From Lachnospiraceae bacterium (GTDB lineage Bacteria > Bacillota > Clostridia > Lachnospirales > Lachnospiraceae): a stretch of DNA of 64,000 bases. The DNA is taken from the NCBI GenBank assembly GCA_022647575.1, contig JALCKY010000004.1, positions 186,001-250,000 of the forward strand. Direction: 5' to 3'. This document shows positions 3,686 to 64,000 of the stretch, piece by piece (positions within the stretch are counted from its first letter, which is position 1; every line of letters begins with the position of its first letter). Both the position numbers and the translations under genes were made by a program. The notes below the pieces were generated by a model. That model searched no databases. It saw nothing but the letters and a program-made list of their open reading frames with translations, and was not told the origin of the DNA.

Positions 3686-3716
3686 ACTAGTATAAATGTT
3701 TTTAAATAAATGGACT
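3686..3716 (+). repeat. IS630 left terminal inverted repeat
   Basis: Matches the reverse complement of 4951-4981 at 25 of 31 positions. The outer ten bases and an inner AAATGGACT block are identical. Confidence 0.85.
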
Positions 3717-3770
3717 ATATGGTCATTCCATGGTATAATATTCATATCAGATGAAAGGGAGTATTACACT

Positions 3771-4961
3771 ATGGGAAAAAATGCATCCGTTATTAAACTA
3801 AGCAACGATGATCGTATATATCTTGAAACTCAAATACGTGCTAGAACCATACAGGCTCAGACAGTAAATCGAGCAAGAATTTTACTACTCAAAGCAGACG
3901 GGATATCAATTGATGATATCGCAGATAAAGTTGGAATGAACCGCAAAAGTGTCATGCTTTGTGTCAAAAAATATCATGATGGTGGTGTAGAAAATGCATT
4001 ATTTGATGCGCCAGGTCGTGGCCGTAACGCTGAAATAACGGACGACGAAAAAACGTGGATTATAAATATCGCCTGCCAAAAGCCGTTCAATCTTGGTTAT
4101 TCGGCAGAAGTATGGACGCGTGCTCTTCTCACAAAACACATCAATAAATTTGCAGAAGAAGCTGGTCACACACGGTTGTCAACAATCAGTCAGTCTAAAG
4201 TTCGCACAATACTTGAAGAGGCAGATATTAAGCCGAATAAGATAACTTATTATTGTGAAAAACGTGACCCTGAATTCGATCAGAAAATGCACAATGTTTT
4301 ATTAGTATATAAACAATTGTCCTTACAGTTTGATGAAGCTGGTCAACTCATTCCGTATGAAGAAAACGAAGATGTTGTACATGTTCTTTCTTATGATGAA
4401 AAGCCAGGCATTCAAGCAATTGCCAATACGTCAGAAGACTTGCAACCAGATGAAACGCACAAGACCATTAGCCGCGATTATGAATACAAGCGTCTCGGTA
4501 CTATTTCGTTGCTTGCTGGAATTGATTTACAAACAGGAGAAGCAATTCCGCTTGTAAGAGATAAGCACAGCAGCAAAGAGTATATCGAATTCCTTAAATT
4601 ACTTGATGCAAGGTATCCAAAGTTTGATAAAATTCGTTTGGTGTTAGATAACTTGAGGGTACATTCTTCAGAAGAAACACGCAAATACTTGGCATCGAAC
4701 CCAGATAGATTTGAATTTGTATTCACACCAAAGCATGGTTCGTGGCTTAATCTTGTTGAAGGCTTTTTTAGCAAACTCACACGCCAAATGCTCAAAGGCA
4801 TACGTGTAAAAACTAAGGATGAACTTGTGGAACGTATATATAGATACTTCGATGAGGTAAACGAAGATCCAATTGTATATCACTGGAAGTACAAACTTGA
4901 AGAAGTTGATTCCAGTGAAAATGTGGTAGTTGATACGTTGCAAATCAAAAAGTCCATTTAA
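3771..4961 (+). CDS. IS630-family transposase
   Basis: A 396-residue DDE transposase of the IS630/Tc1-mariner type. The N-terminal part is helix-turn-helix (RTIQAQTVNRARILLLKA, then DDIADKVGMNRKSV). The catalytic core shows DEKPGIQA, LVLDNLRVHSS and HGSWLNLVEGFFSKLTRQML, which carry the three acidic residues. The ATG at 3771 is chosen over an upstream in-frame ATG at 3696, because AAAGGGAG precedes it and the upstream start would lie inside the left terminal repeat. The frame is intact, so the element may still be active. Its AT-rich codons resemble the first 6.4 kb rather than the rest of the window. Confidence 0.93.
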   Translation: MGKNASVIKLSNDDRIYLETQIRARTIQAQTVNRARILLLKADGISIDDIADKVGMNRKSVMLCVKKYHDGGVENALFDAPGRGRNAEITDDEKTWIINIACQKPFNLGYSAEVWTRALLTKHINKFAEEAGHTRLSTISQSKVRTILEEADIKPNKITYYCEKRDPEFDQKMHNVLLVYKQLSLQFDEAGQLIPYEENEDVVHVLSYDEKPGIQAIANTSEDLQPDETHKTISRDYEYKRLGTISLLAGIDLQTGEAIPLVRDKHSSKEYIEFLKLLDARYPKFDKIRLVLDNLRVHSSEETRKYLASNPDRFEFVFTPKHGSWLNLVEGFFSKLTRQMLKGIRVKTKDELVERIYRYFDEVNEDPIVYHWKYKLEEVDSSENVVVDTLQIKKSI

Positions 4962-5713: not shown

Positions 5714-6460
5714 ATGAGTAAAGAAACCGAAACAACAAAAAATGATGCGCTGGTAGCTCAGTTCCGCTTCGCCATGATAGCTCCTGTGATTCAGGGGCTT
5801 TTTCCTGACGTCTCTGCAACGGCTTACTATAAGCGTGTAACCGAACATCCGCTGACTCTTCCTAATGGAACCGTCGTCCAATACAGTTACAAGACTCTTG
5901 AAAAATGGAAGTCTCTGTATCTTCGCGGTGGACTTGATGCACTGATACCAACAACCAGATCTGATAAAGGTATTTCGCGTGCCTTAAATGATGAGGCTAT
6001 TAACGAAATCTATCGTGTCAAACAGGAACATCCTCGTATGAACGCAACTCAAATCCATGATTACCTGATTCGTGAATCATTTCTTTCTGCATCCGTCAGT
6101 GTTGACTCCGTCCAGCGATTCGTTAAGAACAATGATCTGAAATCTGCAAGAGATCCCAACCTTAGAGACCGTAAAGCCTATGAAGAAGACGAATTCGGTA
6201 AGATCTGGCAGGCTGATACCTGCTATCTTCCATACATTACAGAAGATGGCAAAACAAGACGCGTATACTGCATCATGATTATCGATGATCATTCCCGCCT
6301 CTTAGTTGGCGGTGAACTTTTCTACAACGATAATGCCTACAACTTTCAGAAAGTCCTAAAACAGGCCGTTTCCACCTACGGAATTCCAGATAAACTTTAT
6401 GTCGATAACGGCTGTAGTTACAGTAATGAGCAGCTTTCCATGATCTGTGTATCTATGGCA
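5714..6460 (+). pseudogene. IS481/IS3-like DDE transposase, 3' end lost
   Basis: A good AAGGAGGG site precedes the ATG at 5714. The first ~248 residues read as a DDE transposase. They include an N-terminal HTH region, then an rve-type core with WQADTCYLPY (first Asp), IMIIDDHSRLLVGG, and KLYVDNGCSYSNEQL (second Asp). The third catalytic residue, normally a Glu in a KGKIER-like motif, is missing. After about NEQLSMIC (near 6450) the frame runs into the antisense of a sugar-binding protein gene, and the remaining codons to 6712 are not transposase. The element is therefore truncated and dead, joined to the lipoprotein gene by insertion plus deletion. The exact junction (6450-6470) cannot be fixed by eye. 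Confidence 0.8.
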
Positions 6461-6989
6461 ATCCGTATACTTTTCCATCCCTTTTGCAGGACGGCAAAAC
6501 GGTTGGTTCTACATCAGACACCCAGGAAGCATCCGAAAAATCATAGAAATTTTCCGTCGGATTATAGGCATCCAGAGCAGTCCCTCCCTGATGCAGAAAA
6601 ATATCCGGGATATCCCCGGTCTGGAATTTCATCTGGCATACCGATTCAAAATTATCGGAATCAATTCCCTGAACGTCAATCGTATTCCCCGTTTTATCCT
6701 CATACAGTTTGATCATATTCTGGTAATATGGACGTTGAACATTGCCTGCATCTCCGTATAAAGTCAGTGTCACACCGCCTTCTGAAGCCGGGGATGACGT
6801 AGCTGCCGCCGTTGAAGTTTCTGCAGCAGCGGCAGATGTAGCCACTGATGCTGCCACAGATGTCTGGGCAGAAGCTGCTGCCGATGTGGCCGCTGCAGGC
6901 GTGTCTGTTGTATTGCCTGAGCCGCATCCCACAAGAAGGGATGCCGCCATAGCTGATGACAATATAATACCGATAACCTTGTTTTTCAT
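6453..6989 (-). pseudogene. Sugar ABC transporter substrate-binding lipoprotein, truncated
   Basis: The start is clear: GGAGGTG before the ATG at 6989, a lipoprotein signal with lipobox LVGC and Cys at about 22, then an Ala/Ser/Thr-rich tether, and the opening of a CUT1 solute-binding domain (VTLTLYGDAGNVQRPYYQNM). The frame ends after 178 residues at DGKVYGLP, where a full protein would have about 400 or more. The break coincides with the truncated transposase arriving from the other side. It is the last gene of the leftward beta-galactosidase/permease/YesMN module, so that transporter has probably lost its binding protein, unless another one serves it. The stump could still be exported. Confidence 0.85.
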
Positions 6990-19224: not shown

Positions 19225-19560
19225 CCTGAAAGCCCGGCTTGAAAGATTTGGCTTGAAAGCTGCAAACTACTGCCTGAATGATTCAAACTGCGGATTTCGG
19301 CAGTAGTTTTTCCGGAAGAAATGAGATTTGCACCGCTTCAAATATAGAATCTACCGCCTAAGTAATGCTATATGCTTATTCAGGCAGTAGTTTTCACAGG
19401 AAAATCAGGAAATTCTCTGTCCCAAAGAAATAAACTACTGCCTAAATAATGCAATGCATGTATTCAGGCAGTAGTTTATATGGCAAAAGTTAAAAAGCTA
19501 TCGTATCAGGAATCAAAATTACTGCCTAAAGATCAGCAAAATTAATATTAGGCAGTATCA
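19225..19560 (+). repeat. Left arm: array of four palindromes
   Basis: Units lie at 19264-19311, 19351-19394, 19432-19477 and 19518-19558, starting every 81-87 bp. Each has arms of the type AAACTACTGCCT and AGGCAGTAGTTT around a loop of about 18-24 bp. Spacers of about 38-40 bp differ from one another but match, inverted, those of the right arm. The array is 3' of the TPM gene and about 180 bp upstream of the GH95 start. Confidence 0.92.
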
Positions 19561-19683
19561 AGCTCACAAACGGCAGCTTCCTGATCAACGTCTTGCCAGG
19601 ATCGGAGCAAACGCTGCACCCGCGGAGCGCGGCTGGCACTACTGCTACGCGCCGGGCTCATCGTCCTGCCACGGAAGGTTCCA

Positions 19684-20553
19684 TCAGAACCCGTGGCCAC
19701 CGCCGCCGGTACCTCCTCCGCCACCGCCGCCAAAGCTCCCGCCACCGCCGGAGCCTCCGCCGCCACCGGAAGAATGCGTAACACGGTATGTTCGGATAAT
19801 GTCATTCAGGACCGCGCCTGCTGCTATGATCGAACTGCCGACCAGCATTCCCTGTACGGCGGTCACCTTTGTCTTTTTTGAATAGGTTGCTACGATGATA
19901 TAGTTGATGACGATCGCCAGGAACAGCGCAAGCAGGAAACTGCTGACAAACCGCATCGGCTGGGCAATGTGCCGGCCCTGATAAACCTGCAGGATCTCGG
20001 TGAAGCCCTCTTCCGCACACTTTGCATAGTTTCCGTCCGAGGCATAGCTGTAGGTATTGTCCGTAATGCTCGTGCAGTAGGAATCGGTAATAACTTTCCT
20101 TACGGCACCGCTGGTGATGATCTGAATATTGCGGGTATCCATGTCGATCAGAAACACAATGCTGTCGCTGCCTTCTCCGAAAAGATCGTACAGCCGTGCC
20201 GTTCCATATTCCTGTGCCACACCGTACTCGTTATAATCCGTGCTGCAGAAAGCAACGTTGCAGTAATCCGTTACGGGCTGCATGAAACCGGAAAGTTCCT
20301 GCTTTTCAGCGTCCGTCATAAGTCCGGCATTATCTTCAATGACCATCTCAAAGGAAGCTGCCTGGGCATCCGCACCCTGCGTACCGGATGCCTGCGTATC
20401 CGCTGTCTGTGCTTCCGTTGTCTGTGCTTCCGTCGTCTGCGTTCCTTCCGCCCGGACCGGCAGCTGTGCAGCAAAAGTCAGGATAAGAATGGAAAACATG
20501 ACACATGACAGCGTCCGGAACAAGGATTTCCAAAATGGTTTACGCACGGTCAT
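19684..20553 (-). CDS. TPM-domain secreted/membrane protein with Gly-rich tail
   Basis: The 289-residue product starts at 20553, overlapping the end of the zinc-ribbon gene by 14 bp, so the two are co-translated. A signal peptide (LSCVMFSILILTFAAQLPVRAEG) is followed by a five-fold TTEAQ-type linker. A TPM domain comes next (about 75-215: VIEDNAGLMTDAEKQELSGFM, DSIVFLIDMDTRNIQIITSG), then a membrane region and a tail of glycines ending GGGGHGF, a hallmark of TPM proteins. TPM domains are found in thylakoid and bacterial envelope proteins; some have phosphatase activity or act in membrane-protein quality control. The precise role here is unknown. An in-frame upstream extension to 20703 overlaps the neighbour and is rejected. 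Confidence 0.85.
   Translation of the reverse strand: MTVRKPFWKSLFRTLSCVMFSILILTFAAQLPVRAEGTQTTEAQTTEAQTADTQASGTQGADAQAASFEMVIEDNAGLMTDAEKQELSGFMQPVTDYCNVAFCSTDYNEYGVAQEYGTARLYDLFGEGSDSIVFLIDMDTRNIQIITSGAVRKVITDSYCTSITDNTYSYASDGNYAKCAEEGFTEILQVYQGRHIAQPMRFVSSFLLALFLAIVINYIIVATYSKKTKVTAVQGMLVGSSIIAAGAVLNDIIRTYRVTHSSGGGGGSGGGGSFGGGGGGGTGGGGHGF
20363..20437 (-). repeat. In-frame 15-bp repeat, five copies, in TPM gene
   Basis: Five 15-bp units (starts 20363, 20378, 20393, 20408, 20423), variants of TGTGCTTCCGTTGTC. They encode QTTEA-like units in the linker after the signal peptide. The unit resembles the one at 18183-18257. Confidence 0.85.
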
Positions 20554-22060
20554 CGCCTCCCTTCCTTGCAAACTGCGGCATCTTATGCGTTGACAGAATG
20601 TTGAACCGGCGAATCGTGGAAACAGCCGCCAGGACAGCGGAAACGATGGCAAATGTGGAAGGAAGATAGTACCAGAGATCGTTGGCCGGATGGTAGTAAG
20701 CAATGACTGTGATCACTGCATCCGCCGCCAGCATCAGCAGATACTCCATCCAGGAGCCCTTTGCCTCTTCCGGTTTTTTCCCAAGTGCCTTGACCAGGAT
20801 GAATATGAAGACCACGATTCCGAGCATCACCGTGTATTCTGGACTCTGCACCTTCGAACCATTCTGAAGAAGACTGATGAAGACAAAGCCGAAAAAGACT
20901 CCCGCGATCAGCGAGCCGATGACGCCCGGCTTTCTTTCGCTCTTTTCAGCCTTGAGTCCGTTCCCTTTCTTTGCAGGCTCTGCATCATTGATGATATTTG
21001 CATTGGTGTGCCGTAGCGCATTGGTGAATGTTGCGGCTGCAGCGGCAAGCGCCAGAGATGAGAGCGTCATCGTCGCCAGCGGCGTAATAGTGAACAGAGA
21101 CAGAATGATAAACAGGATCAGCGTAATGAAAGCGGTCCCGATCATAAATTTCTTCGGATCGACGGGAATGTCCACTGCGATCTCGCCCGTCTGACCGTTC
21201 ACGGCGGAATAGGCGACGCGGTTTCCGTTTTTGTAGGACATGAACCAGACCGGCATCAGGACACGTTCCTGGTCGACTGCTTCATCGGTTTTCGTAAACT
21301 GCAGGTTCGTACAGTTCCCGGGGAAAAATTTTCTGGCTGCATCATCCCTGACCTTGCCTTCCGCAGCCTGTACGGCATCGGGCAGATAGAAATCGGCAGG
21401 AACATCCTCCGCATCCGTGTAGAATCCCATAATGTATCCCATCCGGAACGGCAGCGCTTTTTCATGATGATAAGGCTCGACCGCCCGGCTTACAGAATCG
21501 CTGTAGGCGGTTGAAGAGTCATAGAGAAAACCGGAGTAATGTGCTTTGACATCACAGGAATTTCTGTAATTGGTAACCAGATCAAAAGAGCCCTGGTTGT
21601 CAGTCTTCTGGGACTCTCCCGTCACCTTGCCGGCCACATCGATATTGTACTGCCAGTATGGCATGTAAATACCGCGGAAGCTGTCAATGTACTTTTCATT
21701 CTTCATGTCATCCGGCGCGTAAATGGCATGCTTCAGTTTTTCAAGATAGGCCTTTTTACAGTCTTCCTTTGTTTTCTGAAAAGGGATGATCTTCTCAGGA
21801 CGGCGGGCTGCAGAGAGCCGTTTCCCGAACGTCGTAGTTTCTCCGCAGTACGGACAGAAACCTGCCGCTTCCTCCGATGACGACTCGATCTCTCCGCCGC
21901 AGTTCGGACAGGTGAAAATATTCGTTTCGTACGTTGTGTCGGCCGTCTTTCCTTCCTCGTCCGGCGGTACTTCAGACGTGGTTCCGCAGTATTCACATTT
22001 CATCATCTGGGTTGCGATGTCGAACCGCTGTTCAGCACCGCAGCTGGGACACTTGATCAT
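20540..22060 (-). CDS. Zinc-ribbon membrane protein
   Basis: The 506-residue product starts at 22060 after GGAG and opens with two zinc ribbons: CPSC/CEYC (residues 4-24) and CPNC/CPYC about 25 residues later. A soluble domain of about 200 residues follows, with aromatic-rich repeats (GIYMPYWQYNIDVAGKVTG). Then come membrane helices (MIGTAFITLILFIILSLFTI and more), a short loop and further hydrophobic segments. This arrangement is known from Firmicute proteins of the TFIIB-zinc-finger type that sit beside TPM proteins; their function is not established. It overlaps the TPM gene. The pair is enclosed by the inverted palindrome arrays and may act in envelope quality control (inference). Confidence 0.8.
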   Translation of the reverse strand: MIKCPSCGAEQRFDIATQMMKCEYCGTTSEVPPDEEGKTADTTYETNIFTCPNCGGEIESSSEEAAGFCPYCGETTTFGKRLSAARRPEKIIPFQKTKEDCKKAYLEKLKHAIYAPDDMKNEKYIDSFRGIYMPYWQYNIDVAGKVTGESQKTDNQGSFDLVTNYRNSCDVKAHYSGFLYDSSTAYSDSVSRAVEPYHHEKALPFRMGYIMGFYTDAEDVPADFYLPDAVQAAEGKVRDDAARKFFPGNCTNLQFTKTDEAVDQERVLMPVWFMSYKNGNRVAYSAVNGQTGEIAVDIPVDPKKFMIGTAFITLILFIILSLFTITPLATMTLSSLALAAAAATFTNALRHTNANIINDAEPAKKGNGLKAEKSERKPGVIGSLIAGVFFGFVFISLLQNGSKVQSPEYTVMLGIVVFIFILVKALGKKPEEAKGSWMEYLLMLAADAVITVIAYYHPANDLWYYLPSTFAIVSAVLAAVSTIRRFNILSTHKMPQFARKGGDDRA

Positions 22061-22287
22061 GGCACTCCTCCGTAGACAGTATGGTTTGGCGGGGCAGGGT
22101 CCTGTATCAGGATTCCGATCAGGTGCCCGAAATACAGCTTCCCCGTAATTCAGTATAGCATCCGGAAGGAATGGATACATCTCGAATTATTACTCACAGA
22201 TCAAGGCCCGCAAAAACAGATCTGACGCTTATCGCAGCATTTGTCCCGATCATAAAAACCTTGATCATGAAGCAGCCTTTACGCGCC

Positions 22288-22622
22288 GGTTACTGCCTAA
22301 TACTTATTTTGCTAAACTTTAGGCAGTAATTTTGATTTTTGATATGATAGTATTTTCTCATTTTTTGTATAAACTACTGCCTGAATATATGCATTACATC
22401 ATTTAGGCAGTAATTAATTTCTTTGGTACAGTGAATTCTTTAATTTTCCTTTGAAAACTACTGCCTAAATATATGTAAAGCATCATCCGGGCGGTAGTTT
22501 TTCGTTTTCGAGGCAATGCAGTCCTCATTTTCTCGGAATAGCTACTGCCGAAACCCGCATATTAAATCGTTTAGGCAGTAGTCTGCGTCTTTCAAGACAA
22601 ATCCTTCAATCCGGGATTTCAT
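22288..22622 (-). repeat. Right arm: array of four palindromes, inverted copy of left arm
   Basis: Units lie at 22290-22333, 22371-22415, 22455-22502 and 22540-22582. The first equals the inverse of the fourth left unit, and so on in order. Where the arm sequence changes (TTACTGCC in the first unit) the partner arm changes with it (GGCAGTAA), a compensating pair. The outer flank continues to match (CTTTCAAG and CCGGG blocks) up to about 22622. The array lies upstream of the zinc-ribbon gene, about 230 bp from its start. Confidence 0.92.
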
Positions 22623-22682: not shown

Positions 22683-22774
22683 ATTTCCTGCGCTTATTTC
22701 CTACCGCTTATTTCCTGACACTTACTTTCTTCCGTTTGTTTCCTTCCGCTTAATTTCCCCTCGTTTACTTCCTT
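22683..22774 (-). repeat. 14-bp degenerate tandem repeat at the 3' end of the kinase gene
   Basis: About six units of the type TTTCCTACCGCTTA run from the last codons of the kinase gene into its 3' untranslated region. The stop codon itself lies inside one unit, so expansion could move the protein end. Confidence 0.7.
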
Positions 22775-25461
22775 CCGATGATCCCGCTGATCGTCCGGTA
22801 CAGCGTCTCCGGATCGATGGGCTTCGCAAGATGGCCGTTCATGCCGGCGTCGAGACTCGCGCGGACATCGTCATCAAACGCATCGGCAGACATCGCAATG
22901 ATCGGTACATTGGCATCGCTCCGGTCCATCTGACGGATCGCTTCGGTCGCTTCGCGGCCGTTCATGACCGGCATCCGGATATCCATAAGAATGACGCCGA
23001 AATGACCGGGTTCCGACGCCGCAAACAGATCGCAGGCAATCTTTCCGTTTTCGGCACACGTGACCTTCATGTCACGCATTTCGAGCACAGTCTTTGCGAT
23101 CTCGATATTCATTTCGTTATCGTCGACCAGAAGCACGTTCAGATCCTTCAGGCCGTCCCAGGAATTTTCCGCTCCGCTGCTTTCATCCGGCAGATCATCG
23201 ACACGTTCCAGATCAAGATAGACAGTAAACGCCGTGCCTTTGCCCAGCTCGCTCTGCACCTCGATCGTGCCGCCCATCAGCTCGACCAGCTTTTTGACAA
23301 TAGACAGGCCGAGGCCGGAACCGCCGATATTTTTGGTTGTCTCCTGCCGCTCCTGTGAGAAAGGCTTAAAAGCCTTCGGAAGAAATGCGGAGCTCATGCC
23401 GCAGCCCGTATCTTTGATAATGACGCGGTCGTGCACGCAGTTCTTTTCCAGCTTCACACATTCCACGACCATCGTAATGGTCCCGTTCTCCGGTGTAAAT
23501 TTGACGGCATTGGAAAGCAGGTTGATAAAGATCTCCTGGAGGCGCAGCGCATCGACATTGATCGTCGCCATGACCGCCCGGCTGTTGTCCAGTACCAGCT
23601 TCTGGTGCTTCTCGTCCATGGCCGGTTTTATGGCGGCGACGACTTTCCGGATAACTTCTCCGCAGCTGATCGGCGCCGGTTTCAGCGTGACGACACCCGT
23701 CTCGATCTTGGAAAGATCCAGCGTATCGTTCACAAGGGAAAGCAGGATCTTCCCGGCCTTCTCCGTTTTCTCCAGATACGAGCGGACCGCCTCCAGATCC
23801 TGCGACTTTTCCGCCAGCCCTATGTAACCGAGCACGGCGTTCAGCGGTGTCCGCATATCGTGGCTGACATTGGAAAGAAATTCCGTCTTCATGGCATTGG
23901 CATGCCGCGATTCCTGCAGTGCCTTCTCCAGATTCTCTGTCCGTTCCATCTCGTTCCGGATTTCCTGGGTGATATCATTCCGCAGGAACAGGATCTCCTC
24001 CCTGTCATCGTCCAGATAGCGGACGGCGATCTTTTTATGGAGCGTTTCTCCGGAGGGACCCTTGCAGTTGTAGAAGAAGCTGTACTCCTCCTGTTTTCCG
24101 AGGGCTTCGATCACGGTGTCAAAACAGATCCTTGCGTACTGTTTTTCCGCTTCTTCCGGTTCGAACAGGCCGGCCATTTTTTCACGCATGGCCTCGTCAT
24201 AGTCATCCGTTACGATATGGAACGGCGCCACGGCGCGGTTGGAGGAATACTGATAATGGAATTTCCGGCTTTCCACGCTGACGAGCGCAATGTAATCGAA
24301 TTCCCGGTTGGTAATGGCGGAAATAACCCGTTCCTCCTTTTCCTGACGGTCGACATCGGTGGAATAGAGAATGGCCTCGACATCGCCGCTGTCGGGGTTC
24401 TTCAGCATACCGATGCTGGTCCGGACCATATGGGATTCGCCGTTTTCCATGACACGGTGATAGCGGCAGGCTCTTCTCGCGATGTTTCCGCTGAAATCCT
24501 TCAGAAGCTGCTCGCGCGAAAAGATCATTCCGAACCGATCGGCTTCCCGGGCGTCCTTGATAAAACGCCGGATGCCTTCAAACAGTTCGTCCGCCGTATC
24601 TCCTACGGCCGCTGGATCGAAATCCGCCGATGAGATATGTTCATCCCGCCGTGTATTCTGGGTCAGATTGACATGGGAATAGAAAAGAGCGTCGGCACTG
24701 GTGGAAAGCAGATCCTCCAGTGATTTTTCATAGGTCCTGTAAGCATCCTGGTATTTGGCCCTCTCGACGGCATACCGCTCCGATATCCGCTGCTGAACCG
24801 CAAGGTAGACGATGAGCATGGCGATCGCCTCCGAGACACCCATCACGGACATATCGAACATCAGATACTGCATGATGGGACCGAGCAGCGGGAACACGAA
24901 AAAGAGAAAGAAAAGCAGGAAATCCTTTTTGCCGGCCTTTCCGTTTTTCATCAGTGCAGCCACGGCGGTCACAATGATCACGACGACCATGCTGAGATAA
25001 CACAAAAAGATAAAGAACGTAAAATACTGTCCCCGGGCATAGACACCTTCCGGCGAGACGGAATAGACACCGTTGTTGAAGATACCGGCGATCAGGAGTG
25101 CAAAATCAACGGCCGGCCCGGCGGCAAAACAGATATAGAGCTTTTTCCTCGGAAGCGCGCCGTTGAACCAGTAGTAGGAATACAGCGTCCACAGCACGGA
25201 GATTACAAGCAGCAGGGAGAAGAACACAAACTGCACGATCCGGTATACGAGAACCGACGTACCGGAAGTTCTGCCTTCCAGCAGCACCTGCAGGATCTCG
25301 ATGATCAGGATGCCCGCACAGACCTGCAGCATCAGCATATAGATCTTCCGGCTGTGGTCGTTGACCGGTTCGACGGCAACGGCGGCAAGCAGGGCGGTCA
25401 GAATGCAGAGCCCGATGGCAGGAACGATCAGATTAATATGCAGTAAATAGGCAGCGTCCAT
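22765..25461 (-). CDS. Hybrid histidine kinase with 7-TM sensor and receiver domain
   Basis: The 898-residue protein has seven membrane helices in its first ~225 residues (7TM/MASE-like sensor), a PAS-like region (about 240-510), and a HisKA dimerisation domain with the phospho-His in FLSNVSHDMRTPLNA (near 530). An ATPase domain follows with GGSGLGLSIVKKLVELMGG. The C-terminal receiver (about 775-895) has the acceptor Asp in VILMDIRMPVMNG. No HPt or DNA-binding output is fused, so a separate phosphotransfer partner is needed. The start follows GGGAG. It is third in an operon after the NhaC-type antiporter and a 4-TM protein (17 nt gap), which suggests it senses ions, pH or the proton-motive state; this is inference. 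Confidence 0.92.
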   Translation of the reverse strand: MDAAYLLHINLIVPAIGLCILTALLAAVAVEPVNDHSRKIYMLMLQVCAGILIIEILQVLLEGRTSGTSVLVYRIVQFVFFSLLLVISVLWTLYSYYWFNGALPRKKLYICFAAGPAVDFALLIAGIFNNGVYSVSPEGVYARGQYFTFFIFLCYLSMVVVIIVTAVAALMKNGKAGKKDFLLFFLFFVFPLLGPIMQYLMFDMSVMGVSEAIAMLIVYLAVQQRISERYAVERAKYQDAYRTYEKSLEDLLSTSADALFYSHVNLTQNTRRDEHISSADFDPAAVGDTADELFEGIRRFIKDAREADRFGMIFSREQLLKDFSGNIARRACRYHRVMENGESHMVRTSIGMLKNPDSGDVEAILYSTDVDRQEKEERVISAITNREFDYIALVSVESRKFHYQYSSNRAVAPFHIVTDDYDEAMREKMAGLFEPEEAEKQYARICFDTVIEALGKQEEYSFFYNCKGPSGETLHKKIAVRYLDDDREEILFLRNDITQEIRNEMERTENLEKALQESRHANAMKTEFLSNVSHDMRTPLNAVLGYIGLAEKSQDLEAVRSYLEKTEKAGKILLSLVNDTLDLSKIETGVVTLKPAPISCGEVIRKVVAAIKPAMDEKHQKLVLDNSRAVMATINVDALRLQEIFINLLSNAVKFTPENGTITMVVECVKLEKNCVHDRVIIKDTGCGMSSAFLPKAFKPFSQERQETTKNIGGSGLGLSIVKKLVELMGGTIEVQSELGKGTAFTVYLDLERVDDLPDESSGAENSWDGLKDLNVLLVDDNEMNIEIAKTVLEMRDMKVTCAENGKIACDLFAASEPGHFGVILMDIRMPVMNGREATEAIRQMDRSDANVPIIAMSADAFDDDVRASLDAGMNGHLAKPIDPETLYRTISGIIGRK

Positions 25462-29687: not shown

Positions 29688-31697
29688 ATGGATACGAAAA
29701 GCGGATCGAATGATTCATACCGGCAGGAAATGGACAACCTGCGCCATGGCGCGAATGACGGTCTCGTCAGCAAATTTCACGGAGATCTTACGGCAGGCAG
29801 AATTCTCGAGTATGAGAATGCAGGAAAAATGCCGTTTGCCATAGAACCGGAGATGAATTATGACGATGTGTTTTCCGCTTTTCTGGAGCACTATGCCCCG
29901 GTGCCGGAGCAGCGGCAGATTCTCAGCCGCCTGCAGAGGGAAAGCCTTCTGTCCGATTATGAGAAGGGTGAAACCCGTTTCACGGTAAAATACAGCCTGC
30001 AGCCGGTGAATCAGCTCCCGATTTTTCTTTCCAGTACAGTCAGTCTTTTTCTTTCTCCCGAAACAGGTCACATCGAGTGTTTTACTTACACCTTTGATAT
30101 TACGGACAAGACGCTGGAGGAACAGGTATTCTCACATCTTCCCATGCTGGGATTTGATGTGGTTGGCATTCTCTATGTACAGACACATGTCTGCCGTTAC
30201 TTCCGCATCAAGAAAATGCGCCCGGAATCCATCTATGAGCATCAGGAAGATTATTATTCCTCCATCGGTGGCGATATTGAGAAAATCGTTCTGCCGGAAC
30301 AGCGGGAAGATGTCCGGAAGGGACTGCGGATCGAGACCATACAGGCTGTCCTGGAAAAGGAGGAGACCTACCCTTTTACTTATTCCATGTTCGGTCCGAA
30401 AGGGAATATCCTGCAGAAGCTGATCCAGTTCTCCTATCTGGACGCATCGCACGCCACCATCTTCTTCTGCAAAAGCGATATCACAAAGCAGACGGATGAC
30501 GAGCACCGGCAGATCGAAGAACTGGCAGCTGCCAAACTGGAAGCGGACAAGGCCAGCGAAGCCAAATCCATGTTCCTGTCCAGTGTCAGCCACGATCTGC
30601 GGACACCGCTCAACGGTGTCATCGGTTTTACCGATCTGGCCCTGCGGACGGATGACGAGGCAAAACGGCTGGAATATCTGGAAAAGATCCGTACCTCCGG
30701 GGAGCTTCTTCTTGCCCTTGTCAACGATACGCTGGATCTGTCACGTATCGAGAGCGGAAAATATGTCATGGAGCCGGAGGCTCTGGACTGCCCGGAACTG
30801 CTGCGCAATGTCGTAACAGCCCTGCAGCCCCAGGCGGAAAGCCGCCATATCAGCCTGCGGATCTCCATCGGTCCCACACCGTCCGAATATGTCTGGGTCG
30901 ACCGGCTGAAGCTGCAGAAGCTGTTTCTCAACCTGCTTTCCAATGCTGTCAAATACACCCTTGACGGCGGCACCGTGACCGTTACGAGCGGCTGCCTCTC
31001 TCCTGTTTCCGACGGCTGCAATTACCGGATCTCCATTCAGGATAACGGCGTCGGTATCAGCGCGGAATTTCTGCCGCATATCTTTGAACCGTTCGCCCAG
31101 GAGCACCGGAAGGAAACTTCGCATGTCGTCGGCACAGGCCTCGGTCTTTCCATCGTAAAGCGGACCGTAGATCTCATGCACGGCAATATCCGGGTGGACA
31201 GCGAGCCCGGGAAGGGGAGCTGTTTTACCGTGGATCTTCCGCTCATGGCGGCCGATCCGTCCGCTGCCGAAAAGAAAGAGAACAGCTCCTCGTCCGCGGT
31301 ACTGGACGGAAAGCATGTTCTCCTCTGTGAAGACAACTACCTCAATGCGGAAATCGCTTCCACGCTCCTGCGGGAACGCGGGATCCTTGTAGACTGTGCC
31401 GCCGACGGGAAGGAAGGTCTGGAGAAATTTTCCGCTTCCGCCCCGTACTATTACGATGCGGTCCTGATGGATATCCGTATGCCGGTCATGGATGGATGCG
31501 AAGCGGCAAAAGCGATCCATCTGCTGAAACGCCCGGATGCCGTCGGCATCCCGATCATAGCCATGACTGCAGATGCGCTCGATGACGATTCGGAACGCAG
31601 GCGGGCAGCGGGTATGTCAGTCCGTGTAACGAAGCCCGTCAATCCTCCCGAGCTGTTCCGTGTGCTGGAAAAAGCAGTTGCGGAACGCCTTCCGTAA
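29688..31697 (+). CDS. Cytosolic hybrid histidine kinase
   Basis: The 669-residue protein has no membrane segment. Its N-terminal ~270 residues form one or two PAS-like sensor modules. HisKA follows with the phospho-His in FLSSVSHDLRTPLNG (near 302), then the ATPase domain (NLLSNAVKYT, DNGVGIS, GTGLGLSIVKRTVDL). The C-terminal receiver (about 540-665) has the acceptor Asp in AVLMDIRMPVMDG and the KPVN lysine. There is no HPt or DNA-binding domain. It is transcribed divergently from the MATE gene and converges with another hybrid kinase. Domain order matches the other hybrid kinases in the window, so they are probably paralogues with different sensors. Confidence 0.9.
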   Translation: MDTKSGSNDSYRQEMDNLRHGANDGLVSKFHGDLTAGRILEYENAGKMPFAIEPEMNYDDVFSAFLEHYAPVPEQRQILSRLQRESLLSDYEKGETRFTVKYSLQPVNQLPIFLSSTVSLFLSPETGHIECFTYTFDITDKTLEEQVFSHLPMLGFDVVGILYVQTHVCRYFRIKKMRPESIYEHQEDYYSSIGGDIEKIVLPEQREDVRKGLRIETIQAVLEKEETYPFTYSMFGPKGNILQKLIQFSYLDASHATIFFCKSDITKQTDDEHRQIEELAAAKLEADKASEAKSMFLSSVSHDLRTPLNGVIGFTDLALRTDDEAKRLEYLEKIRTSGELLLALVNDTLDLSRIESGKYVMEPEALDCPELLRNVVTALQPQAESRHISLRISIGPTPSEYVWVDRLKLQKLFLNLLSNAVKYTLDGGTVTVTSGCLSPVSDGCNYRISIQDNGVGISAEFLPHIFEPFAQEHRKETSHVVGTGLGLSIVKRTVDLMHGNIRVDSEPGKGSCFTVDLPLMAADPSAAEKKENSSSSAVLDGKHVLLCEDNYLNAEIASTLLRERGILVDCAADGKEGLEKFSASAPYYYDAVLMDIRMPVMDGCEAAKAIHLLKRPDAVGIPIIAMTADALDDDSERRRAAGMSVRVTKPVNPPELFRVLEKAVAERLP

Positions 31698-31765: not shown

Positions 31766-34612
31766 TCATGCGCGGATCAGGCGCCGGAGCGTCGCATAAA
31801 GCTGCTGCGTATCGATCGGTTTGGTCAGGTAGGCATTCATGCCGGACGATCCGGAACGTTCCTTTGTTTCCGTGATCGCATCCGCCGTCAGCGCAATGAT
31901 CGGAACGGTGCGGGCGGAAGGATGATCCAGAGCGCGTATTTTCTCTGTTGCTTCGAAGCCGTTCATGACCGGCATCCGCAGGTCCATGAGAATACAGCAG
32001 TATTCCCCCGGTCCGGAATTCCGGAATTTCTCCACGGCTTCTTTTCCGTTCGGCACGCTGTCGGTCCTGAGGCCGGTCTCTTCCAGCAGCCGGACGATAA
32101 TCTCCGTATTGATCGCATTGTCTTCCGCCAGAAGCACGGTACCGCTGAGCGGCTCCTTCTCCTGCTGCGGAAGCACGGTTCCGCTGAGCGGCTCTTTATT
32201 CTGCGCCGCATCCGATGCCGCCGGCAGCGCCGTGTCCGGTACGGCCGGACGGCTTCCGGAAGACTCCGGGAACATCAGGTGAACCGTCACGCACGTGCCT
32301 TCCCCGATCCGGCTCTTTACCTCGAGCGTTCCTCCCATCAGATCGATCAGGCGGCGCACGATGGAAAGACCGAGCCCGGTCCCGCCTGCCAGCTTCACCC
32401 GCTCCGGATTCTCATCATCCTGGGTGAACGGCTCAAACATGATCTTCTGAAATCCTTCGCTCATGCCGATTCCCGAATCACGCACCTCAAAACCGCCGGC
32501 ATCCATGCCGTTGTCCTGCCGGGTGCACCAGAAATGCACCTGTACACTTCCTCCGGCAGGCGTATATTTGACTGCATTGGAAATGATGTTCAGCACGATC
32601 TGGTTGATCCGGATCCTGTCCGCACAGGGGACGGCGTCGGACTCATCCGATGTCACTTCAAACCGGATCTTCTTCTCCCGGCAGACCGGTTCGAACACAT
32701 CGACGATGCTCTGCACGCATTCCCGGTAGACATACGGCTCGGGATGCAGTTCGATCTGTCCGCTGTCGATCTTGGAAATATCGAGAATATCGTTGATCAG
32801 ACTGAGCAGGAATCCGTTCGATGTCCGGATCTTCATGAGATCATCCCGCAGTTTTTCCGTATTTCCGATGTCCGCCAGCGCAAATTCGGTCATGCTGGTG
32901 ATGGCGCTGATCGGCGTCCGGATGTCATGGCTGATCCTTGAAACAAAGTCCGTTTTGGCGCGGCTGGCATCTTCCGCATGCCGCAGCGCTTCCTGCAGCT
33001 GCCGCATCCGCTCCTGCTCCTCTTCATAGGATTTCGTGATATCGGTCTGCACAAAAATGATCTTGTCTTCCGTCTCTCCGAGCCAGCCGATCTGCAGCTG
33101 TTTCTTCTGCTGTTTTCCTTCCGTCCGCTCAAGGGTATACGTACAGCTGAACTGTCCCTCCGAAGACAGACGGCGCCGCAGGCTGTCCATCGCGAGATCG
33201 CGGATGAACCGTTCCTTTTCGGCAGCCGCAACGTACTTCCGGGCAAAGGCGGTCATGGTCTCCTGATAGTCGTTTTTCCGGCGGTCGCTGACGCCCTTCA
33301 TCTCCCAGATCCCCTGGCGCAGGCTGAGGAGCCCCGTGTCAGTCTCGACGATCCCGATGAAATCGTGGCTGTCACAGGTTATGCGGCGGATGATCTGCTC
33401 ATTTTCCTTCTGGTCGGTGATGTCCACGGCGCTGACCATGGCTTCGATGTCACCCGTTTCCGGGTTCCGGACCATATGCACCACGCCCCGGAGCCAGCAG
33501 TACGCACCTTCCGGCGTGCGGATCGGATATTCCAGTTCCACGTTGCTCTTTCCCGCATGAAAAGAAGACAGCAGATGATTCCGGCTGAAGATCTCCTGAA
33601 ATGTGCGATGGCAGCCGTCATCGATAATGCTTCCGGCCGATGCGGCAAAAAAGCCGTCCGCCGTTCCGGCATTCTGCAGCGTCAGATAAAACGGAAATTT
33701 ACTCTGTCCGCCGCCGCACCAGTTCGTCGTGAGGTTCATTCTGAAAAAGCATACGGAATCCGGATTGGCTTCCGCCATCTGGCGGTACCATCTCCGGTAG
33801 TTCTGCTCTTCGTTTCTGCGCGCGGTGATGTCCTGGCCGATGCCGCAGGCATAGACCGGCTTACCGTTTTCGTCGTACACCATCGTATAGGTGACACGCT
33901 CGCAGCGGGCGTTTCCGTAGATATCCGGCTTATACCAGTATTCGCAGGATGCCTTTTTTACTCCGCGGTCCAGCGCCCGGTACATGCTGCAGTATCGTTC
34001 GTAATCTTCCTCGGCGATCCATTTTTTCTCGCATTCCGGAACGTTTTCCAGCGTCTGCGGAATGCGGTACCGCTGGCAGAGGATCCGGGTCGCCGGATTG
34101 TCCGACATCAGGACCGTATGCGTGACGATGTCATAGTTCCATACGCAGAGCCCGGCCATTTCCGCCGATACTTCGTACATCTTCCGGCTTCGCGTAAGGT
34201 CTGCTTCCATCCGCTTCTCCTGCGTGATATCCGTCAGGGCAGAGTAAACTGTAAATGTGCCGGACGGCCCTTCCACGGAACGGACATAGGAGGAATACCA
34301 CCGCATGCTGCCGCCGTCCGGAAAATAACGGAAAGAATAGCGTATATCCCGGCCTGAGCTGACCATGCCCCTGTGCAGGGAAACGGCTTTTTCCAGATCG
34401 TCCGGGTGGATCTTCGACCGAATAATCCGGTATTCATCCTCCAGGCTGCAGTCCGGGGCAATTCCCAGAAGACTGCGGAACTGCGGGCTTTCGCTGTGAG
34501 ACAGGATCTTTCCGTCCCGGATCACGCTGGTGCTGACGCCGACCGGCAGATTGCGGAGAACTTCCCCGACATCCATCCCGCTGTATATTTCTTCTTTTTC
34601 ATGTTCAGCCAT
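31766..34612 (-). CDS. Multi-PAS hybrid histidine kinase
   Basis: From the ATG at 34612 the product is about 948 residues, cytosolic, with three or four PAS/PAC modules in the first ~530 residues (for example RYFPDGGSMRWYSSYVRSVEG, EYPIRTPEGAYCWLRGVVHM). HisKA has the phospho-His in FVSRISHDIRTPISA (near 560), followed by an ATPase domain with GGTGLGLSIVRRLIDLMGG. After a linker repeating a KEPLSGTVLP unit twice comes the receiver, with Asp in CILMDLRMPVMNG. The start is awkward: a hairpin with a T run ends at the ATG. The alternative is a TTG at 34723 (985 residues), which would read through the hairpin. Confidence 0.88.
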   Translation of the reverse strand: MAEHEKEEIYSGMDVGEVLRNLPVGVSTSVIRDGKILSHSESPQFRSLLGIAPDCSLEDEYRIIRSKIHPDDLEKAVSLHRGMVSSGRDIRYSFRYFPDGGSMRWYSSYVRSVEGPSGTFTVYSALTDITQEKRMEADLTRSRKMYEVSAEMAGLCVWNYDIVTHTVLMSDNPATRILCQRYRIPQTLENVPECEKKWIAEEDYERYCSMYRALDRGVKKASCEYWYKPDIYGNARCERVTYTMVYDENGKPVYACGIGQDITARRNEEQNYRRWYRQMAEANPDSVCFFRMNLTTNWCGGGQSKFPFYLTLQNAGTADGFFAASAGSIIDDGCHRTFQEIFSRNHLLSSFHAGKSNVELEYPIRTPEGAYCWLRGVVHMVRNPETGDIEAMVSAVDITDQKENEQIIRRITCDSHDFIGIVETDTGLLSLRQGIWEMKGVSDRRKNDYQETMTAFARKYVAAAEKERFIRDLAMDSLRRRLSSEGQFSCTYTLERTEGKQQKKQLQIGWLGETEDKIIFVQTDITKSYEEEQERMRQLQEALRHAEDASRAKTDFVSRISHDIRTPISAITSMTEFALADIGNTEKLRDDLMKIRTSNGFLLSLINDILDISKIDSGQIELHPEPYVYRECVQSIVDVFEPVCREKKIRFEVTSDESDAVPCADRIRINQIVLNIISNAVKYTPAGGSVQVHFWCTRQDNGMDAGGFEVRDSGIGMSEGFQKIMFEPFTQDDENPERVKLAGGTGLGLSIVRRLIDLMGGTLEVKSRIGEGTCVTVHLMFPESSGSRPAVPDTALPAASDAAQNKEPLSGTVLPQQEKEPLSGTVLLAEDNAINTEIIVRLLEETGLRTDSVPNGKEAVEKFRNSGPGEYCCILMDLRMPVMNGFEATEKIRALDHPSARTVPIIALTADAITETKERSGSSGMNAYLTKPIDTQQLYATLRRLIRA

Positions 34613-34660
34613 AAAAAAGGATCCCCTCCGCTGCATCCGGAGAACGGGATCCCTTTTCTG
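34612..34660 (-). other. Hairpin at the start of the multi-PAS kinase gene
   Basis: GGGATCC arms flanked by AAAA and TTTT form a terminator-like stem-loop whose T run touches the ATG at 34612. The ribosome site GGAGGGG lies within the hairpin's 3' side, so folding could mask translation start or end transcription. Confidence 0.5.
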
Positions 34661-34785
34661 ACGGTCCCCGGTCTCTGGCGGATGTTTTATTTCATTCTCT
34701 GTCAGAGAGGAGTCTTCCGTCAATTACTATTTTTACATTCTGTCCAATACGCGCCAATCGGTTTTTCCAGCCGCGCCAACAGCGG

Positions 34786-41573: not shown

Positions 41574-41610
41574 AGCGGCCCGGATCACTGAAGATCCGGG
41601 CCGCTGTTTT
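41574..41610. terminator. Bidirectional terminator between convergent genes
   Basis: The perfect 13-bp arms AGCGGCCCGGATC and GATCCGGGCCGCT enclose a 6-base loop. TTTT follows on the plus strand and CCTTTT on the minus strand. It serves both the rhamnosidase gene and the convergent hybrid kinase gene, whose last codons abut it. Confidence 0.9.
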
Positions 41611-44435
41611 CAACTGTTTTCCCATGCTTTCAGCAGCACTGCCTTCAGCTGCTCCGGGTCGACCGGCTTCGTGATGTAATCATCCATGCCGGCCTGCCGG
41701 CAGCGCTCCATGGCCGCCGAAAACGCATCTGCCGTCATGGCGATGATGGGAATGGTCCGTGCGTCGGGACGGTCCAGTGCGCGGATCCTCTCGGCCGCTT
41801 CATACCCGTCCATCAGCGGCATCTGGAGATCCATCAGAATGGCCTTATAGCGGCCGGGCGCCGACTCCCGGAAAAGTTCCAGGGCGCGTCTGCCGTTTTC
41901 CGCGGTATCCAGGGTGATGCCGATGCTCTCCAGCAGCCGTGCCGCGATCTCCGCATTAATCTCATTGTCTTCCGCCAGCAGCACGTGCCCCTGCAGTACC
42001 GGGCCGGACTGGTTTTCCTCCTGCCGGACCGCCGCAGTCGCTGCCCCGTATGCCGCGCCCTCCGGGGCTGTGAAGCAGACTGCAATATCCGTGCCTTTTC
42101 CAAGTTCGCTTTTTACCGTAATCGTACCGTCCAGCAGATCCACAATGCGTTTTACGATGGACAGGCCGAGTCCCGTTCCGGTATTGCCGCCGATATGCTG
42201 CGGATTATCGTATTCCTGCGTAAACGGCTGGAACATCCTGCTCTGGAATTCCTCACTCATGCCGATCCCCGTATCGCAGACTTCAATCCGGCAGTCCAGC
42301 CTGCCATCCTCCCTCTGCCGGCTTCCTGAGCGGAATGTAATGGTTCCCCCTGCCGGCGTATATTTGACGGCATTGGAGATCAGGTTCAGGGTGATCTGGT
42401 TCAGTCTTGTATGATCGACCAGGATGCAGGCATCCGCCCCATCCTCCTCAATGTGCAGCGTCAGGCCCTTCTGTTCGCAGAACGGCTGGAACATGTTCCG
42501 GATATTGGAAATATAGTCGTCATACAGATACGGTTCCGGTTTCAGCTCGATCATGCCGCTGTCGATCTTCGAAATATCCAGCACATCGTTGATCAGACTG
42601 AGAAGAAAAGTATCCGCCGAATCGATCTTTTTCAGATCTTCACGCAGCTTTTCCGCGTTTTCCGCGTCTTCCATGGCAAAATTCGTCATATTCCGGATGA
42701 TCCCGATCGGTGTCCGGATATCGTGACTGATCCGTGAGATGAATTCCGTTTTTGCCCGGTTCGCCTTCTCGGCGTCGTCGACAGCCTTTCGCAGCGCGGC
42801 ATTGCTACTTTCTTCCACCGCCTGCTTCCTGTGCTGGAAACCGATCTCCAGGAAAGCGATCATCAGAATAAACAGAATGCTCACCAGCAGTGCGATCAGG
42901 AGCGGATGATCATAAAAGATCCCGATGAGGGTCTGCTGCCGGTAGGTATTGACCGTGTAGGGCGCACTGATATCGGCGACATTCTGATCCGATATGGAAT
43001 CCGCCGCCTTTTCCAGGACCGAAGCCAGAAGATAATCCGCCCGGCGGTTCACCGCAATGGAAAAACGGATCTGCCGGCTCGGCAGCGTCACACAGCCAAG
43101 CTGATTGGCCGGATCATCATATACGGCTGCCTGGGCCGTATTGGTCAGCAGGTAGCCCGTATCCACGACACCGCTTTTGACGGCGCTGACGCATTCCTGC
43201 ACACTGCCGCAGCTGACGGTATTCAGCCCGTTCAGCAGGTCCGGCAGCTCCTCCTGGATCTCCTCTCCTTTTACAACGCCTGCCGTCCGCGGATTTCCGG
43301 TGAAGGAATTCCGGTAGATCCGCGCCACCGACGCCGTATAGTAAGGCAGCGTAAGAACATAGCCGTCGTTCTCCGCATGGGAGGCATTGGAGCAGAAATA
43401 GCAGCAGATATCGGCGGCTCCGCTTTTTTTCAAAGACAGGTATTCCGTGCGGTCCTTCGGTTCCTGAATACGAATCTGCAGTCCCGTCCTGCGGAATATT
43501 TCCTGACAGAGGTCGGACAGGATCCCCTTGGCCTGCCCTTTTTCGAACCAGCTGTAGGGCTTTTCGTCCGGATTGATGATGGCTGTAAATACCTGTTTTT
43601 CAGAGGTACACCGGTCTATGAACTGCTGTTCCTTTTCCGTGTAGGCGATCTCCGACCCGCTGTCCGGCGAATAATAACGGCGGAACAGCTCTTCCTGCAG
43701 ATCCGGCGAAACCGTATTGATCTGCGAAATGGCATAATTGACTTCCTCCAGCAGCCCGGCATTGCCTTTTTTCACAATGACATAGAACGGTTTGGGATCA
43801 AACTGGGCAAGCACCCATTCATTGCGGACCTGCCGCAGATTGCTCGTGACGATGGCATCGATGGAGCCGTCGGCCAGTGCTTCGGTCAGTTCCTGTACAG
43901 ATTCAAAATAGTCCGATTTATAACTGAAACCGTTCTGCAGCGCAAATTCGGCAAAACTGGCATTGCGGCTGTTGTTGCGCAGCAGTCCGACATGCATGCC
44001 GTCCCAGCCGGCAATGTTGCCGGACTGGTATCGGGTATCGCCCGCCCTGACCGTCAGGATCGTGGAACTGGTCCCGATCGGTTCGTCGGAATAATCGAAC
44101 CTTGCTTCTCTCTCCTCCGTTTTCGAAGCAGATGTAAGAAGGTCGATCTCCCCGCGGTCGAGCATATCCAGCATGTCGCTCCAGCTTTTATTTTCGCTGT
44201 AGCCGACATAGGTATACTGGAAATCCGTATAGGGCAGCATAGCCTGCAGGTACGCGTATCCGTACCCGCTGCGTGTGCCGTCCGCATTCACCATGTGGTA
44301 GCCGTCAAAGGGAAAATAGCCGACGCGTACCGTTCTCCGCGCTGCGGAAGAACCGGCAGCCGAAACCGGCAGGCTCCCTGCCAGGCACAGAAACAGAACC
44401 AGCAGCAGCGCACATATGCCGCGTCTTCGTCTCAT
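41610..44435 (-). CDS. Hybrid histidine kinase with two solute-binding sensor domains
   Basis: About 941 residues in the style of EvgS/BvgS. A signal peptide (ICALLLVLFLCLAGSLPVSAAG) is followed by two periplasmic-binding-protein-like domains of the SBP_bac_3 type (about 35-250, VRVGYFPFDGYHMVNADGTR; and 270-500, FTAIINPDEKPYSWFEKGQ). A membrane helix (LLIALLVSILFILMIAFLEIG) leads to HisKA with His in FISRISHDIRTPIG, an ATPase domain (GGNTGTGLGLSIVKRIVDL) and a receiver with Asp in AILMDLQMPLMDG. SBP_bac_3 domains usually bind amino acids, so this is probably an amino-acid or peptide sensor. GGGAG lies six bases before the second ATG (44435), preferred over 44441. It starts 17 nt after the protease gene, suggesting one operon. 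Confidence 0.92.
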   Translation of the reverse strand: MRRRRGICALLLVLFLCLAGSLPVSAAGSSAARRTVRVGYFPFDGYHMVNADGTRSGYGYAYLQAMLPYTDFQYTYVGYSENKSWSDMLDMLDRGEIDLLTSASKTEEREARFDYSDEPIGTSSTILTVRAGDTRYQSGNIAGWDGMHVGLLRNNSRNASFAEFALQNGFSYKSDYFESVQELTEALADGSIDAIVTSNLRQVRNEWVLAQFDPKPFYVIVKKGNAGLLEEVNYAISQINTVSPDLQEELFRRYYSPDSGSEIAYTEKEQQFIDRCTSEKQVFTAIINPDEKPYSWFEKGQAKGILSDLCQEIFRRTGLQIRIQEPKDRTEYLSLKKSGAADICCYFCSNASHAENDGYVLTLPYYTASVARIYRNSFTGNPRTAGVVKGEEIQEELPDLLNGLNTVSCGSVQECVSAVKSGVVDTGYLLTNTAQAAVYDDPANQLGCVTLPSRQIRFSIAVNRRADYLLASVLEKAADSISDQNVADISAPYTVNTYRQQTLIGIFYDHPLLIALLVSILFILMIAFLEIGFQHRKQAVEESSNAALRKAVDDAEKANRAKTEFISRISHDIRTPIGIIRNMTNFAMEDAENAEKLREDLKKIDSADTFLLSLINDVLDISKIDSGMIELKPEPYLYDDYISNIRNMFQPFCEQKGLTLHIEEDGADACILVDHTRLNQITLNLISNAVKYTPAGGTITFRSGSRQREDGRLDCRIEVCDTGIGMSEEFQSRMFQPFTQEYDNPQHIGGNTGTGLGLSIVKRIVDLLDGTITVKSELGKGTDIAVCFTAPEGAAYGAATAAVRQEENQSGPVLQGHVLLAEDNEINAEIAARLLESIGITLDTAENGRRALELFRESAPGRYKAILMDLQMPLMDGYEAAERIRALDRPDARTIPIIAMTADAFSAAMERCRQAGMDDYITKPVDPEQLKAVLLKAWENS

Positions 44436-44452
44436 AAGCATCTCCCTGTAAC

Positions 44453-62716: not shown

Positions 62717-64000
62717 CTACAGCTGCGAAGCGATTACCCGGTACAGATTATCCGCATTGATCGGCTTGGCTACATGGGCAGCCATTCCTGCCTGCAGACA
62801 TCTCTGCACATCATCCGGAAAAGCATCCGCCGTCATGGCGATAACAGGAATCGTTCCGGCATCCGCTCTGTTCAGTGCGCGGATTTTTTTTGTTGCCTCA
62901 AACCCGTCCATGACCGGCATCCGGATATCCATGAGAATGACGGAATATGTGCCCACAGGGCTCTTTTGAAAAGCATCTAAGCCCGCCAGGCCGTCTTCCG
63001 CTGCCGTAACCATCATACCTTTTTCCTGCAGCAGCGTACTTTCGATCTCGCGGTTCATTTCATTGTCCTCACACAGAAGGACCGACTTTCCCTTCAAAGC
63101 AGAAACATCAAAAGCGGGTACCGCCGCTTCACCGGACTGTACGGTTTTTTCGTCTGCTTCGGCAAAATGAAAACGCACCGTAAACAGGGTGCCTTCATTC
63201 TTTTTGCTCCGGCACTGTATGGTTCCGCCCATCAGCCTGACCAGCTCGCTTACGATGGACAGACCGAGCCCTGTCCCGCTGCCGCCGTATCCGGTCCTGC
63301 CTTCCTGGGAGAAGGGTTCGAACATATGCTTCTGGAATTCTTCTTCCATGCCGATCCCGTCATCCCGCACGATAAAAACGGAATCCGGATCCGCCGCACC
63401 TTCCGGTACATTCAGAAACGACAGGGAAACATGACCGCCCTCCGGTGTATATTTCACGGCATTGGAAAGCAGGTTGAGAAGGACCTTCTGCATGTTCAGC
63501 GAATCAGCCATGATCACTCTGCGGCGGGCACGCGAGCGGTCGACGGTGAAGGTGATGTTCTTCCGCTTCGCAGCCTCCTGGATCGGCGTGATCACCATAT
63601 CGAAAAGCGCAAAGGAATCGACCGGCTTAAGGTGCAGCTCCAGTTTTCCGTTGCCGATCTTGGACAGCAGCAGTGTATCGTTGATCAGCTGCAGGAGCAG
63701 TTTTCCGGATGTGCTGATCTTCTCGTTCTCCGCCTGGATCTTTGTCAGATCCGTTTCGTTCCGGATCAGGTCCGAAAACCCGAGTATGGCGGTCAGCGGT
63801 GTACGCATGTCATGACTGACATCCGAAAAGAACTGGTTCCTTGCCGCCGTGCTTCTGGCAATGGCTTCCAGCTGCAGCTGTTTTCTTTCGTTATCCGCCT
63901 TTGCGGCATTGATGAGAATAGTTTCCTTCTGGTGGCGGACCAGCGAGACCAGCGCCATGACAAGGATCAGTATGATGAATATGAACACGGCGGCGATCCC
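62717..64000 (-). CDS. Hybrid histidine kinase, N-terminus beyond right edge
   Basis: The frame is open to the last base of the window, so the start lies outside; at least 427 residues are present. A membrane helix (VFIFIILILVMALVSLV) at the visible start is followed by HisKA with His in FFSDVSHDMRTPLTA, an ATPase domain (NLLSNAVKYT, YGGSGTGLGLSIVSELVRL), and a receiver with Asp in VILMDIRMPVMDG and lysine in AKPIN. There is no output domain. It belongs with the other four hybrid kinases. The missing N-terminus should hold the external sensor. Confidence 0.9.
   Translation of the reverse strand, partial: GIAAVFIFIILILVMALVSLVRHQKETILINAAKADNERKQLQLEAIARSTAARNQFFSDVSHDMRTPLTAILGFSDLIRNETDLTKIQAENEKISTSGKLLLQLINDTLLLSKIGNGKLELHLKPVDSFALFDMVITPIQEAAKRKNITFTVDRSRARRRVIMADSLNMQKVLLNLLSNAVKYTPEGGHVSLSFLNVPEGAADPDSVFIVRDDGIGMEEEFQKHMFEPFSQEGRTGYGGSGTGLGLSIVSELVRLMGGTIQCRSKKNEGTLFTVRFHFAEADEKTVQSGEAAVPAFDVSALKGKSVLLCEDNEMNREIESTLLQEKGMMVTAAEDGLAGLDAFQKSPVGTYSVILMDIRMPVMDGFEATKKIRALNRADAGTIPVIAMTADAFPDDVQRCLQAGMAAHVAKPINADNLYRVIASQL

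Follow-up and report, generated by a model that had tools for sequence, protein, structure and literature searches.

What is an ordinary pair of genes doing between two mirror-image arrays of hairpins, and what are these arrays? The question is raised by a 64,000-nucleotide stretch of a Lachnospiraceae genome (referred to as the window), in which an earlier note described two genes enclosed by 335-bp inverted repeats built from palindromes. We believe, with a probability of roughly 0.55, that this is an extragenic hairpin-array element, working in a REP/BIME-like manner and having a foldback layout, which was mirror-copied around an ordinary two-gene unit. The features concerned are as follows.

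19227..19617, plus strand: left arm (outer flank, four hairpins, inner flank), ungapped to 19570, then gapped
19264..19309: hairpin L1, partner R4
19348..19393: hairpin L2, partner R3; both L2 and R3 have the core variant TACCGCC (as read on the left arm's strand)
19432..19477: hairpin L3, partner R2
19516..19561: hairpin L4, partner R1
19684..20553, minus strand: TPM-domain membrane protein gene (PF04536, 53.9 bits), start codon chosen by eye
20540..22060, minus strand: zinc-ribbon membrane protein gene, 506 aa, start codon chosen by eye
22234..22621, minus strand: right arm, inverted copy of the left arm, ungapped in 22278-22621
22287..22332: hairpin R1, partner L4
22371..22416: hairpin R2, partner L3
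22455..22500: hairpin R3, partner L2
22539..22584: hairpin R4, partner L1
22646..22678, minus strand: probable intrinsic terminator (consensus match only) belonging to the hybrid histidine kinase gene upstream, shortly beyond the outer end of the right arm

The inverted repeat is real. Positions 19227-19570 and 22278-22621 are inverted copies with 76.2% identity over 344 nt, ungapped and with no net indel; since a weaker, gapped homology extends them inward, to about 19617 on the left and about 22234 on the right, their length is about 390 bp rather than 335 bp. When the left region is locally aligned with the reverse-complemented right one, the best score is 344; none of 200 block shuffles gives more than 32. 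Four palindromes lie in 19264-19561 and four in 22287-22584, and the arms match position by position, in units, spacers, loops and flanks alike, just as the earlier note had it; the period that it put at about 84 bp is exactly 84 bp at all steps. Each unit can be folded as a hairpin or a cruciform. The arms are AT-rich (G+C 39.9% and 36.6%) compared with 51.7-58.2% in the four genes (the enclosed pair, the kinase gene and the GH95 gene, the last being taken to 19068). An entire array of four hairpins, flanks included, was duplicated as a mirror image; the odd core TACCGCC is found in the partners L2 and R3, and therefore the array was copied as a block.

After the copying, the 7-bp cores remained unchanged while the loops and spacers drifted. 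The stem cores TACTGCC/GGCAGTA differ between the arms at 0 of 56 positions (14 in each of the four unit pairs) versus 82 of 288 elsewhere (Fisher p 6.6e-8), a comparison biased by the fact that the core was chosen from these same units; outside the cores, the differences amount to 33 of 128 positions in the rest of the hairpins and 49 of 160 in the spacers and flanks. If the pattern of core positions is shifted by five or more places, it always meets at least seven differences. The claim that stem changes are partly compensated finds no support: 1 of 13 pairs changed on both sides, the shuffle mean being 1.2. The covariation is thus no higher than in shuffles, and therefore the constraint shows as sequence; it may act on pairing as well. 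None of the three earlier suggestions (a cargo-carrying non-autonomous unit, a paired RNA structure, a protein-bound boundary) is proven; the unchanged cores and the lack of covariation favour recognition of the sequence. A strand preference was considered and dropped: there are 10 G-U versus 5 A-C cells in the window, but the picture is mixed by eye in the genome G568 discussed below.

A stem-blind array finder returned exactly the two known arrays in the 64-kb window, only the window locus again (in L006 and L040) in 716 kb of loci not chosen by motif (some of them overlap one another, and 400 kb were sampled from the window's own genome), and no array in 400 kb of shuffled sequence. Its sensitivity on known arrays is limited (it recovers 7 of the 9 loci of G568, the array of G232 and 1 of the 13 Bifidobacterium loci, and misses G142 and L158), and for this reason the rarity of tandem hairpin arrays is only provisional.

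Both arrays sit in the intergenic spaces on either side of the zinc-ribbon/TPM pair, each downstream of a gene; on the minus strand the order is kinase, terminator, right array, zinc-ribbon gene, TPM gene, left array, GH95, the hybrid histidine kinase (right side) and the GH95 gene (left side) being on the same strand as the enclosed pair. The zinc-ribbon protein has no Pfam or NCBIfam family above the cut-off. It has matches in 70 of 99 genomes (own included), the best full-length relative having 37% identity; its matches in 11 plasmid records and 8 phage records are all below 60% identity, and one phage-labelled record covers the whole query at 34%. One genome (G069) contains nine zinc-ribbon matches, an apparent expansion. 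The window is also rich in hybrid histidine kinases (22765-25461, 29688-31697, 31766-34723, 41610-44441 and 62717-63988), and the own genome has at least 21 matches to them at E <=1e-60 (best 21 of 91 candidates).

In a domain search, neither enclosed gene proved to be a transposase, and mobile-element domains were absent in domain searches of six and ten proteins (two of the ten had no match at all). The exclusion of a standard IS in the earlier note is borne out by this, and that of CRISPR by units that are self-complementary and only partly alike, with spacers common to both arms. Elsewhere in the window, transposase-type genes DDE_3 and rve are located at 3696-4961 and 5714-6712, about 12.5 kb from the left arm.

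The array is alone in its own genome (3.03 Mb, 94.3% complete), where blastn, pattern and covariance-model searches found no second copy. The covariance-model search proposed earlier did recover the own locus; elsewhere in the genus (3 of 42 genomes with matches, the own one included) it yielded only G019 and G007, with a single weak hairpin in each (E 0.035 and 0.048), both terminator-like by eye. In the family, model R1 matched 13 of 397 genomes at E <=0.01; the other 12 each have a single hairpin place, which by eye mostly resembles a terminator; G232 was in the family pattern-scan sample, though it is not among these matches. Family-level pattern matches are not above the reversed control (14 of 397 genomes vs 18 of 397), and only clusters are informative. 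The pattern scan of the order gave 4 of 392 genomes vs 2 control genomes, with two real arrays (G000, G568), and that of the class 5 of 391 vs 3, again with two (G000, G232). Viral contigs contain 73 stretches with a single palindrome each; among 21 stretches with the three-arm pattern, all but L252, L254 and L261 have one or two, or irregular, hairpins. These three were rejected as arrays: they are 69-bp repeats that look coding, a warning not to rely on the pattern by itself. In L140 (G355), at 1343-1601, GGCAGTA is repeated at 63-bp steps. Eight regions, two of them from the own genome, gave no match to five neighbouring proteins of the window, and a syntenic relative for comparison was not found.

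Arrays with the same core do exist in other genomes (those with a G number are mostly drafts), although the shared core is partly a matter of ascertainment, since they were found by searching for it. In G568, a genome of another family of the same order, nine dispersed loci (L214, L215, L313-L319) have 4-6 hairpins each and no cargo. By the reading of loops, all nine consist of 2-3 hairpins in one direction, a centre step of 41-43 bp and 2-4 hairpins reversed; the other steps are 60-62 bp, and there is one inversion point per locus. Apart from its two genes, the window locus is laid out in this way; the G568 elements stop at the hairpins, whereas the homology between the window arms continues past the hairpins on both sides. 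All nine arrays lie between long ORFs, convergent in five cases, and short ORFs (105-134 aa) overlap five arrays.

In G232, a row of six hairpins at 51-bp steps lies between a desulfoferrodoxin-like gene (named by eye) and a convergent gene, and three of the six show the core exactly on both arms; two of the three hairpins in G142 have the exact core. A scan of a genome collection gave 16 stretches, 13 of them from five Bifidobacterium species and the others being L156, L158 and L159; L158, from an uncultured bacterium, has three hairpins by pattern and, by eye, one degenerate hairpin. The Bifidobacterium arrays have longer stems and steps of about 63 bp, and each stretch contains one to four full hairpins. 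The array-bearing genomes differ from one another in loops, steps and flanks, and no central inversion is seen by eye in the arrays of G232, G142 and Bifidobacterium, the mirror plan being common only to G568 and the window locus. In Bifidobacterium felsineum (L161, 6399-7950), an apparent single gene lies between two hairpin arrays, which by eye have the same orientation.

The distribution bears on the suggestion of a non-autonomous mobile unit, for which the arms of about 390 bp would be terminal inverted repeats with recombinase-binding hairpins, the zinc-ribbon/TPM pair the cargo, and the transposase a factor acting in trans. We regard it as doubtful. It is favoured by the mirror arms, which take in just two genes and lie between the terminator of the kinase and the region upstream of GH95, by the two transposase-type genes some 12.5 kb away, and by the dispersed cargo-free elements of a like, foldback-like layout in G568. 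The homologous genes, too, show no adjoining array on either side in the flanks examined at 13 places (12 relatives and the own paralogue; some flanks are shortened by contig ends), and thus the case of genes with an array on one side only, which would have told against joint gain or loss, was not encountered. However, the window copy is the only one: by blastn, the left arm matches nowhere else in the own genome (the regions of the Y1 transposase and of the 12.5-kb-distant transposases included), nor in 60 relatives, plasmids and phages; no target-site duplication is seen by eye outside 19227 and 22621, and no empty site was found. The gene pair is ordinary, a TPM homologue adjoining the zinc-ribbon homologue in 11 of the 12 relatives and in the own-genome paralogue. 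Any movement must be old because the arms are 24% diverged, and because of this age a target-site duplication may have been lost. Transposases of the own genome may act on the arms in trans.

Two further readings were considered. If the arrays were tandem terminators or operator sites insulating the operon, the mirror layout would have no further meaning; we find this improbable, although both window arrays are downstream of a gene, the G568 array lies between convergent long ORFs at five of nine loci, and the single weak model matches in other genomes are mostly terminator-like by eye. The consensus scan finds a terminator-like site in only one of the eight hairpins (a weak test, since the scan is limited to loops of 3-8), the T tracts are short, and it would be unusual for four similar terminators to follow one another at fixed steps of 84 bp. 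Still less probable, in our opinion, is a structural RNA or DNA device, in which the arms would pair over about 390 bp in a transcript, or form a giant cruciform, and so control the operon. The predicted arm-to-arm pairing (-412.5 kcal/mol on the plus strand and -440.3 on the minus strand) is indeed much stronger than that of the single arms summed (-227.8 and -240.7), but any inverted repeat of this length gives such an energy; covariation is lacking, and a terminator-like site separates the kinase from the right array. A structured RNA family was likewise discarded, as there is no covariation and no curated match above the gathering score (Rfam gave three matches at E <=1, all below their gathering scores).

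We therefore return to the extragenic hairpin-array element and its likeness to REP, BIME and REPIN. The common features are extragenic imperfect palindromes, clustered and in both orientations, and the G568 arrays are also multi-copy. REP-like families are usually abundant, whereas the own genome has eight hairpins at one locus, at exact 84-bp steps. REP palindromes have a GTAG or CGTC tetranucleotide tag at one end (PMC3733652), and the accounts cited here describe bacterial palindrome repeats with this tag or with accompanying RAYT genes (PMC3733652, PMC2817692). A one-sided GTAG/CGTC tag is absent from the eight units as a REP tag: five have CTAC and GTAG at opposite ends of one stem, one has GTAG/CTAC on one side, and two have it on neither. 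The only PF01797 (Y1 transposase) gene of the own genome contains, within its locus and 1.5-kb flanks, no TACTGCC/GGCAGTA and no perfect palindrome with 9-bp arms, and so offers no cognate RAYT. PF01797 matches occur in 8 of 11 genomes searched, array-free relatives included, and there is none in the array-bearing G142 (89% complete) or in two Bifidobacterium genomes. A RAYT-driven REP was rejected on these grounds, and considering that copy number in the own genome, tag and RAYT all speak against it, the element is not filed as REP/BIME.

The locus has terminal inverted repeats, as non-autonomous transposons, MITEs and insertion cassettes do. Mobile insertion cassettes have passenger genes between inverted repeats and no transposase, as at the window locus, and end in sequences that match the ends of an IS; for the ends of the window locus, no further copy is found in the own genome, plasmids and phages. 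Eukaryotic foldback transposons (e.g., Tetris and Galileo) have long inverted repeats composed of tandem subrepeats, and unrelated DNA may or may not lie between the two repeats. The window locus shares this layout and the layout only: it is bacterial and shorter, its subrepeats are hairpins, and there is no sign of this copy moving. The BrickBuilt MITE of Porphyromonas gingivalis is likewise an intergenic element with an internal tandem array; it is described as multi-copy, with 23-bp repeats without spacers and small inverted ends (PMC4596501), and that description, as far as we cite it, mentions neither mirror-image arrays nor cargo genes. A literature search found no description of an array like that of the window locus, a negative result that does not prove the absence of a published one.

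We presume that the core TACTGCC/GGCAGTA would be recognised as sequence by a putative protein, which would spread the arrays in some genomes, e.g., G568, while in the window they would persist as structured boundaries of the zinc-ribbon/TPM operon. The mirror-image arrays may represent what foldback elements are in eukaryotes. It is tempting to go further and to propose a bacterial foldback class, whose members would have mirror-image hairpin arrays at regular spacing and a 7-bp core in common, cargo-free in G568 and with a two-gene cargo in the window, and moved or maintained by a putative protein recognising TACTGCC/GGCAGTA; as a whole, this proposal is rather unlikely. Nevertheless, arrays without tag or RAYT, with fixed spacing and mirror symmetry, which are dispersed in one genome, point to an unrecognised recognition protein and perhaps to an unrecognised mobile class, and the invariant core offers a direct bait for the putative protein.
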